A DNA stretch of 64,000 nucleotides from Luteimonas rhizosphaericola (lineage in GTDB: Bacteria; Pseudomonadota; Gammaproteobacteria; Xanthomonadales; Xanthomonadaceae): positions 1-64,000 of the forward strand of contig NZ_JARXRN010000028.1 of assembly GCF_029888045.1 (NCBI RefSeq), given 5' to 3'. The notes beneath the pieces were generated by a model that was not told the origin of the DNA, made no database searches, and saw only the letters and a program-made list of their open reading frames with translations. Below, piece by piece: positions 26,865-57,714 of this stretch. The first letter of the stretch is position 1; each line of letters opens with the position of its first letter. The position numbers and the translations under genes are program-made.

Positions 26865-27918
26865 GTAGCCCGGACAAGGCCGAAGGCCGCATCGGGATTG
26901 ATCCGAGGTGCGCCGGGAGGGGGCGATTGGCCCCGGGTGCGCTTCGCTTGCCCGGGCTACGAGCACCTGACGGACGTGCCCCGGCGCCAGCCGGTGCGCA
27001 GGCTCCGGTGTGGCCGCGGCGCCCCACGCCGAGCGGGTGCACCGCTGGCTGGGACGTCGTGTCCTCAAGCGCGGCCGCGGCACATCCGTGTGCCGCTTGC
27101 ACCCGCTCCGCGCGGGGCGCCGCGGCATGGCGACCGAGGGGGCGTCGCTTCGGTGGCGCGTGGAGGCGACATCCTTCCGGATGCGTTCCGGTTGCGGCCG
27201 AGGGGCGGAAGCCGTAGCCCGGATAAGGCCAAAGGCCGCATCCGGGGTGATTTGAGGCGCGCCGGGCGATGCGCGTGGCGACGGGCCCCGAGTGCGTTTC
27301 GCTTACCCGGGCTACGAGCACCTGACGGACGTGCCCCGGCGCCAGCCGGTGCGCAGGCTCCGGTGTGGCCGCGGCGCCCCACGCCGAGCGGGTGCACCGC
27401 TCGCTGGGACGTCGTGTCCTCAATCGCGGCCGCGGCACATCCCTGTGCCGCTTGCACCCGCTCGGCGCGGGGCGCCGCGGCACGGCGACCGAGGGGGCGT
27501 CGCTTCGGTGGCGCGCGCAGGCGACGTCCTTCCGGATGCGTTCCGGTGGCGGTCGAGGGGCGGAAGCCGTCGCCCGGATCAGGCCGCAGGCCGCATCCGG
27601 GTGATTTGAGGCGCGCCGGGCGATGCGCGTGGCGATTGGCCCCGGGTGCGCTCTGCTTACCCGGGCTACGGCGCTTTTCTCTGGCGGCCGCGGCACATCC
27701 GCGTGCCGCTTGCGCCCGCTCCGCGCGGGGCGCTGCAGCATTGCGACCGCGGGGGCGTCGCCTCGGGTGTGCGTGGAGGCGCAGATCTTTCCCGGTGCCG
27801 GGCGAAGACAGGGCCGCGTAGCCCGGATAAGGCCGCAGGCCGCATCCGGGTTGCCGGGAGCCCAAACGCATGATGAGGTGGCGAAGGGCCCCGGGTGCGC
27901 TCCGCTTGCCCGGGCTAC
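26865..27918. repeat. REP array B: inverted REP pairs, about 354-base period
   Basis: This 1.3-kb gap between flhA and flhF (same orientation) carries the same two REP forms as array A. Form a on the plus strand is at 26865-26896, 27214-27246, 27569-27601 (head changed to GTCG) and 27818-27850. Form b on the minus strand is at 26932-26960, 27287-27315, 27641-27669 and 27890-27918. Two nearly full tandem units of about 354 bases are followed by a shortened one of about 249. The filler is related between units but unlike that of array A. Open frames here only encode repeat-derived peptides. The last REP ends five bases from the flhA stop. Confidence 0.86.
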
Positions 27919-55763: not shown

Positions 55764-56942
55764 TCATATGACCTCGAGCTCGGCGCGCAGCGCGCCGGCG
55801 CGCTTGAGCGCCTCGAGGATCGCGACGATGTCGCCCGGCGCCGCGCCCACGGCGTTCACCGCGCGCACGATCGATTCCAGCGACGAACCGCCCTCGAACA
55901 GGAACATGCGGCCGCCGTCCTGGGTGACTTCCAGCGTCGACTGCGGCGCGACCACGGTCCCGCCGCGGCCGAACGCGCCCGGCTGGCTCACCTGCACGCC
56001 CTCGGTCACCGAGACGGTGAGCGAGCCGTGCGAGACCGCCGCCGGCAGCACCGAGACCTGGCCGCCCATCACCACGGTGCCGGTGCGGGCGTTGACGATC
56101 ACCTTGGCCGCGGCTGCGCCCGGGGTGACGTCGAGCGCCTCGAGCTGGGCGAGGAAGCCGATGCGGTCGCCCGCCGGCGGCGTGACCTCGATGGTGACGC
56201 CGTCCAGCGCGCGCGCGCGGCCGGGGCCGAAGGCGCTGTCGATGGCCGAGACGATGCGCGCGGCGGTGGTGAAGTCGGACTGGCGCAGGTTGAGCGTCAC
56301 CGGTGCTGCCTGGCCCGCGCCATGCGTGGCGCCGCCGGGCGCGGCGCGTTCGACGATCGCGCCGTTGGGAATGCTGCCGCCATTGGGCGCGTTGGTGGAG
56401 ATGCGCGAGCCGTCGCGGCCCGAGGCGCCGAAGCCGCTGACCACCAGCGTGCCCTGCGCGATCGCGTAGACCTGGCCGTCGGCGCCCTTGAGCGGCGCCA
56501 TCAGCAGGCTGCCGCCGCGCAGCGAACCGGCGTTGCCGATCGACGACACGGTGACGTCGATGGTCTGGCCGGGCTTCGCGAACGCGGGCAGTTCGGCCTG
56601 GATCGCCACCGCGGCCACGTTCTTCAGCTGCGGGTTCACGCCCGGCGGCAGGGTCACGCCGAGCTGGTCGAGCATGGTCTTCAGACTCTGCACGGTGAAC
56701 TGGGTCTGGCTGGTGCGGTCGCCGCTGCCGTCCAGGCCCACCACCAGGCCGTAGCCCACCAGCGGGTTGCCGCGCACGCCGGCCACCTGGGCCAGGTCCT
56801 TGATCCGCTCCGCCTGCGCCGGCATCGCGAACGCCAGCGACGCGACCAGAACCACCGCGACCGTAGCCCGGATAAGGCCAAAGGCCGCATCCGGGGCCTT
56901 CGCCTGCCCCAACCACGCTTTCATCGAATCCAACCGGAACAT
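55764..56942 (-). CDS. flgI: Flagellar P-ring protein FlgI with REP-derived signal-peptide insert
   Basis: A periplasmic P-ring subunit, 392 residues versus about 365 in E. coli. From ATG 56942 the protein starts [16 protein letters not shown], continues with 11 residues encoded by a REP element ([11 protein letters not shown], residues 17-27), then a normal hydrophobic core and cleavage site ([17 protein letters not shown], mature start ERIKDLAQV). A start at the second Met (residue 7) would not remove the insert. The mature part matches Flg[22 protein letters not shown]. flgH ends 10 bases upstream. Confidence 0.95.
56863..56895 (+). repeat. REP element (form a) inside the flgI coding sequence
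   Basis: A complete 33-base form a REP with the GTAG head at 56863-56866. It is identical over 34 bases, including the AAA loop variant, to the copy at 27214-27246. Its length equals 11 codons, so it keeps the flgI frame. It lies antisense to the REP strand as named here. Confidence 0.93.
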
Positions 56943-56952
56943 GGCGCGGCCC

Positions 56953-57714
56953 TCAGTACGGGAATGCAGCGGAATTGAAGAACCGGGCCAGCCAGCCCAT
57001 CGCGTTCGAACGTGCCAGCGTGCCGCGGCCTCCGTAGAGGATCTGGGCTTCGCCGACGCGGTCGGACGTGACGCGGTTGTCGGGACCGATATCGGCAACG
57101 CGTACCAGCCCTTGAATCTGGACCAGCTCATCGCCCTGGTTCAGGCGCATCTGCTTCTGCCCGGCTACCCGCAAGTTGCCGTTGCCCAGGTCCTCGACCA
57201 CGCTCACGGTGATGTCGCCGGCCAGCTGGTTGCTCTGGGCGCTGTCGCCGGCGCCGGCGAAGTCGCGCGAGCCCTCGATCTCGGCCTGCAGCAGCGGGCG
57301 GCCGTTGTAGGTGACCGACTGCCCGAACAGGGTGGGCGCGGCCATGCCGACGCCGCTGTCCTTGGTGACCGAGGTGCGGGCGTTGGTCTTGGCGGTAGTG
57401 TTCTCCACCAGCACGATGGTCAGCAGGTCGCCGACGCCGCGCGCCTTGCTGTCCTGGAACAGGCGCAGGCCGCGCTGGGGACCGGCGGCCGTCGCGCTGG
57501 CGTAGATCGAGCCGCCGCCGTCGCCGCTGGCCGCCACCGTCATCGGCGCGGCCGCCGGATAGCCCGGCTGCGCCGCGGCCGCGTAGGCGGGTGCCGGGTA
57601 ACCGGGCGCGTAGCCCGGCGCGCCGGCGGGCGCGGCGAACGGGCGCGCATCGCCCACCACCGTGGCGCAGCCGGTGAGGGCCAGCGCGAGGCCAATGCTC
57701 AGGAACGCTTTCAT
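56953..57714 (-). CDS. flgH: Flagellar L-ring lipoprotein FlgH
   Basis: An outer-membrane L-ring subunit, 253 residues. ATG 57714 gives [19 protein letters not shown] with a lipobox LTGC; a GTG at 57726 overlapping the flgG stop is an alternative. A Tyr/Pro/Ala/Gly-rich stretch (about 25-60, repeats of PGY and PA) follows the lipid cysteine and makes it longer than E. coli FlgH (232). The core [18 protein letters not shown] and C-terminal GWLARFF are conserved. Confidence 0.95.

Follow-up and report, generated by a model that had tools for sequence, protein, structure and literature searches.

Here we describe a GTAG-type REP element that lies in frame in the N-terminal pre-sequence of the flagellar P-ring protein FlgI of Luteimonas rhizosphaericola, and that we consider quite probably to be a tolerated, domesticated insertion in a cleaved and sequence-tolerant stretch of the protein, not a proven gain of function. 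The element was found in a window of 64,000 nucleotides, the whole stretch of DNA that was analysed, and was then followed through the genome of that species (G000) and through its congeners, three of which (G065, G075 and G005) carry it at the same place in flgI. The features discussed below are collected in Table 1.

Table 1. Features of the flgI locus and of the REP family; positions refer to the window unless a genome, contig or locus is named.
Feature	Position	Strand	Remarks
flgI, flagellar P-ring protein	55764..56942	-	392 codons, ATG 56942; NCBIfam NF003676, 432.1 bits (cut-off 300)
flgH, flagellar L-ring protein	56953..57714	-	ATG start assumed; NF001304, 239.8 bits, slightly below cut-off 247
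GAGGG, Shine-Dalgarno-like site	56950..56954	-	7 bases upstream of ATG 56942
FlgI pre-sequence n-region, 5' of REP	56896..56942	-	16 residues
GTAG-type REP element in FlgI	56863..56895	+	minus-strand reading gives codons 17-26 and parts of codons 16 and 27
Signal-peptide hydrophobic core, directly after REP	56826..56861	-	12 residues, mean Kyte-Doolittle 2.8
AQA, inferred signal peptidase I site, then E45	56811..56819	-	by homology to solved FlgI sequences
Second REP copy	27212..27247	+	same as flgI copy over 36 bases
REPs supplying a gene-end TAG	L151 3698-3730; L163 1916-1948; L177 1801-1833; L179 1801-1833; L190 1801-1833		
REP variant with compensated stem	G000 C17 78148-139313 (L150-L152); G075 C1 2242036-2300584; G065 C18 139289-141261, C6 251345		

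The 33-mer in flgI is a perfect match to GTAGCCCGGATAAGGCCNNAGGCCGCATCCGGG, with GTAG at one end of a palindrome in the range of 20 to 40 bases. When up to three mismatches are allowed, this pattern has 11 matches in the 64-kb window against none in 100 shuffles, and no Rfam family reaches its gathering score between positions 56000 and 58000. The first-pass annotation had described a complete REP encoding residues 17 to 27. A perfect REP is indeed present in frame, but it starts at the last position of codon 16 and stops at the middle position of codon 27, which makes ten whole codons and parts of two more. The absence of a stop codon, which had been remarked on as keeping the gene open, is real but uninformative, because five of the six frames through the element are free of stops. 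Identity to the copy near 27214 reaches further than the 34 bases first claimed, as the table gives, but it says nothing on recency, because the AAA loop of the flgI element recurs in 8 of the 57 stem-perfect copies genome-wide.

The flgI gene begins 10 bases after the end of flgH, and its start context, TACTGAGGGCC[GA][CT]G[AC]CATG, is common to the four REP species and to the REP-less sister species G002 and G027. The pre-sequence of FlgI is 44 residues long, after which the protein continues with ERIKDLAQ. It has the features of a Sec signal peptide, as judged from properties of the sequence and not from a trained predictor: a net charge of +3 with the N-terminus included, a core hydropathy of 2.8 and an AQA end. 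The hydrophobic core follows directly on the REP, which places the element between the n-region and the core, just as the annotation had it. Five solved FlgI sequences were matched, and two of them start where residue 45 lies here (residue 1 of 9iyc_A corresponds to residue 45, and residue 2 of 9ydo_Ba to residue 46), so the REP-encoded part is expected to fall in the cleaved pre-sequence; the alignment of the remaining three sets in at residue 30-33, and part of the leader is present in their deposited sequences. From these properties we infer that FlgI would be exported by the Sec pathway and cleaved after AQA.

Genome-wide, G000 holds 96 REPs at up to three mismatches, against none of a reversed control pattern. 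Their placement was surveyed in G000 and G065 with gene calls made by codon usage and not taken from annotation. Besides the flgI copy, G000 has 95 REPs, of which 90 stand between called genes, one extends over a gene end by 4 bases and four are at contig ends, which bears out the expectation that REPs normally sit between genes. The 72 REPs of G065 are distributed likewise: 66 between genes, one at a contig end, four sharing 4 bases with a gene end, and the flgI copy wholly inside its gene. Among the elements that could be placed (92 of 96 in G000 and 71 of 72 in G065) none but the flgI copy is contained entirely in a called gene, and flgI is the sole exception seen in these two genomes. With 89% of the window taken up by genes that such a model calls, this distribution shows a strong avoidance of gene interiors by REPs. 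Seventeen of 84 REPs had at first seemed intragenic, and all of these except flgI were attributed to open frames that reach upstream in GC-rich DNA; when codon-score starts are used with all 96 REPs, the sole called overlap remaining in G000 is the one of 4 bases at a gene end. As to setting, 91 REPs of G000 divide into 49 convergent, 40 same-direction (the flgI copy counted here through the codon model) and two divergent, and 66 of G065 into 35, 29 and two.

The survey also gave several observations on the family itself. For five REPs, one in G000 and four in G065, the TAG of GTAG is the stop codon of a called gene, and these are the 4-base overlaps. A variant with a compensated stem (GGCC/GGCC to GCCC/GGGC) is limited, among the copies listed, to one or two stretches per genome in G000, G075 and G065, as if this subfamily had expanded locally. 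The genome has a single Y1 transposase match (G000 C8 124735-125061; L121 1354-2193), whose best family is REP_Tyr_transpos at 69.2 bits, under the cut-off of 80, and which is flanked by 23-base inverted repeats unlike the flgI-type REP; no REP-flanked RAYT for the flgI-type family was found in the genome. With its 23-base inverted repeats the Y1 gene resembles the 'TIRYT' genes of PMC3733652, as excerpts of that paper present them. G075 has a further match to FlgI residues 8-44, which was considered as another REP-derived signal peptide and rejected, as it falls in a REP array (898618-899302) with GC-rich frames and no sign of a real gene.

The genus sample comprised 52 genomes, that of the window included, and flgI is present in 31 of them. 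In four congeners the flgI locus is 100% identical to a database record, from L. abyssi, L. salinisoli, L. deserti and a Lysobacteraceae strain respectively, which suggests that the sampled genus corresponds to Luteimonas in a broad sense. Four of the 31 have the REP in flgI, and the other 27 congeners with the gene lack it. As a side observation, the FlgI of the window is 77-84% identical, over best segments, to some proteins of Lysobacter, Thermomonas and other Lysobacteraceae, and about 67-74% identical to those of most congeners; 21 of the 52 genomes have no FlgI match, and the identity pattern together with these absences gives a hint that the flagellar cluster has been lost and transferred. 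In all, 117 flgI loci (37 and 80 from two sources, four of them the same locus twice) were scored for the REP: the four REP species score 31-36 of 36, and the best of the remaining 113 scores 11.

An alignment with close relatives had been suggested as a way to reveal an otherwise contiguous signal peptide from which 33 bases are absent. The absence is there, but the clean insert is not: the nearest REP-less species by FlgI, G002 and G027, have the leader MATNIASRTLVA[VL]AGLLAVAIAALPAPARA behind the same flgH-flgI junction, the n-region 5' of the REP is unlike theirs, and the pre-sequence is 44-52 residues long in the REP species against 30 in the sisters, a difference of 14-22 residues and not of 11. 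Within the four REP species, on the other hand, the start of the n-region, MFRLDSM, and the reading phase are identical. In the REP or 5' of it the four differ in length by 18 bases in G065 and by 30 bases of extra n-region in G075 and G005, both multiples of three, and a third, of 6 bases, lies 3' of the REP region. In G065 (locus L032) an 18-base imperfect tandem copy of the 3' half of the REP adds six residues (GLIRAT becomes GLIRATGLVRAT), and the GTAG end is mutated to GTGG; in G005 the loop differs. A 75-base query from G005, used to look for a source of the n-region, matched strongly only the four flgI genes among the matches listed; its matches elsewhere are weak, the best listed being 27 bases in G065 at an E of 2e-5, and are probably due to chance in GC-rich DNA.

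These comparisons bear on whether the REP is translated at all, and on the evidence of sequence it very probably is, because G075 and G005 have no workable start 3' of it. Any start after the REP in these two species leaves at most 10 residues before the cleavage site and no charge (the longest leaders so produced are MFAMPAQA and MLAFAMPVQA), and in G000 and G065 the corresponding leader is 15 residues without a charged side chain. It has been pointed out that REPs at the N-termini of genes in published genomes may often be misannotations (PMC3733652, in excerpt), and a codon-usage model trained on the window and the fetched loci puts the start of flgI in G000 at GTG 56855, just 3' of the REP; both would fit a gene that starts downstream, with the REP as an untranslated hairpin between flgH and flgI. 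We regard this as very improbable, since the downstream leaders are too short in G075 and G005 and uncharged in all four species, since the upstream ATG with its ribosome-binding context is common to the REP-less sisters, and since the indels preserve the frame; the chance that two indels are both multiples of three is 1 in 9. A start after the insert had been named beforehand as evidence against an in-frame REP, and in G000 the codon model does point that way, but in G065 the same model keeps the REP inside the gene, and we read its result in G000 as a sign of a young n-region with atypical codon use. The REP would then have the true start of a conserved gene on one side and its stop codon on the other, the codon model in G000 opposing.

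The insertion is not recent, contrary to what had been supposed from the match to the copy near 27214, because four congeneric species share it at a fourfold-site divergence of 12-18%; it goes back at least to the divergence of these four. Their divergence to G002 and G027 is 17-21%. In a tree of ten species, built from the flgH-flgI-downstream region with the signal peptide excluded, the four REP species group together with a UFBoot of 90. A grouping of G000 and G065 with G002 and G027 is rejected (p-AU 1.5e-5); one of G075 and G005 with the REP-less pair is not (p-AU 0.16), and would imply one loss or two gains. Among ten congeners counted, the REP family is large only in the four species that have it in flgI (96 copies in G000, 72 in G065, 82 in G075 and 74 in G005), with 17 in G002, one in G027 and none in four further species. 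We infer a single insertion in the common ancestor. The abundance of the family in all four genomes and the differing loop of G005 could also suit insertions into a hot spot, one for each lineage; but all four have the MFRLDSM flank and one reading phase in common, and codons 26-37 differ pairwise by 1-5 of 36 bases, close to the 4-9% of the rest of the gene, so that separate events seem to us highly unlikely.

A more demanding reading is true exaptation, in which the REP-encoded peptide (PDAA-GLIRAT) was recruited as improving or tuning FlgI export, for instance through a charge at the boundary of the n- and h-regions and through a delay of targeting by a long n-region. The charge nearest to the core on its N-terminal side is in fact the REP arginine (R25 in G000, R35 in G075 and G005) or, in G065, R31 from the partial REP copy, and the segment has been retained over the 12-18% of fourfold divergence. 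By hand count, codon changes inside the REP are three synonymous and one non-synonymous, against two synonymous and nine non-synonymous in the n-region outside it, the latter ratio being unlike that of a constrained coding stretch and so a point against the reading preferred here. The contrast is suggestive of constraint on the REP codons and not proof of it, as it falls short of significance (Fisher p 0.077). Against recruitment stands also the in silico comparison, as when the REP-encoded residues are omitted the profile of hydropathy and charge is similar, K15 or K25 then preceding the same core, which leaves the earlier suggestion of altered P-ring export without support. Signal peptides, moreover, tolerate wide variation in sequence. 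We hold exaptation to be unlikely, and the fuller proposal, that a selfish REP has become a functional, selectively kept segment of the FlgI signal peptide in one clade, its arginine and longer n-region tuning P-ring export, would be a doubtful conjecture; if true, it would be a well-dated case of a REP becoming part of a secretion signal.

The element might instead act as RNA, through a hairpin that slows translation where flgH meets flgI and thereby adjusts the ratio of L-ring to P-ring. In isolation the REP hairpin of each of the four species is stable, at -20.0 to -21.2 kcal/mol (z of -2.8 to -3.1). The 150-base start region of flgI in G000, however, is no more stable than its shuffles (z 0.44), so that the slowing of translation which the first-pass annotation had envisaged finds no support; the hairpin begins only at base 48 of flgI, beyond the initiation footprint; and the changes that G065 and G075 carry do not seem compensatory. 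Its supposed place near the 5' end of the mRNA fares no better, because flgI starts so shortly after flgH that the hairpin is probably internal to an operon transcript. We therefore judge a role of this hairpin in setting the ring ratio to be improbable.

Returning to the tolerated insertion, the course of events may be pictured as follows. The common ancestor of the four Luteimonas-type species would have received the REP at the 5' end of flgI, in the simplest case through one event, at around the time when this GTAG-type family expanded, and the whole n-region would have been rebuilt together with the insertion or after it. Since then the element would have been translated as part of a long Sec signal peptide of 44-52 residues, supplying the last arginine before the core (in G065 through its partial copy), a place in which the lysine just upstream could serve equally. 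The insertion presumably survived by tolerance, its place being in a segment which is cut off once the protein has been exported and whose main requirement is a positive charge ahead of the hydrophobic core. The similar in silico profile, the p of 0.077 and the ordinary start region together favour tolerance over a gained function. A rule suggested by this gene is that a REP inside a gene persists chiefly where the encoded peptide is thrown away or tolerates change, as in signal peptides.

Among known systems, the SMAG/GTAG REPs of Stenotrophomonas, of the same bacterial family, reportedly share the GTAG end and the high copy number. The literature matches listed include no paper that describes a REP in the signal peptide of FlgI or of another flagellar protein. 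Excerpts of a 2013 paper (PMC3733652) report intragenic REPs of the GTAG and CGTC types from several species, some of them N-terminal, together with REPs that supply the TAG stop codon of a neighbouring gene, and caution that many N-terminal REPs may be extragenic, with translation starting downstream; 'signal peptide' and 'flagell' are absent from its main text, its list of intragenic REPs being in Additional file 3. The flgI element is like these cases in being a GTAG palindrome wholly inside a gene, at the N-terminus, in genomes that also have TAG-stop REPs, and unlike the N-terminal cases as excerpted there in that four species and their REP-less sisters argue for coding, so that the doubt over misannotation is answered for one gene. 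A mobile repeat in a predicted signal peptide has also been published, which, as excerpted, is a repeat unit of 168 bases and not a REP, in a putative exported protein and not a flagellar ring protein. The palindromic elements of Rickettsia, which from excerpts of a review (PMC10969869) and of PMC3733652 are likewise palindromic repeats in frame in protein genes, are about 150 bases long and occupy many genes per genome, whereas the flgI element has 33 bases and occupies one called gene per surveyed genome. Both GTAG REPs within genes and a mobile repeat in a predicted signal peptide have thus been published and the kind is known; the flgI element is a new case of it with good comparative support, a mobile palindrome turned protein that is well bracketed by four species that carry it, by REP-less sisters and by frame-preserving indels.
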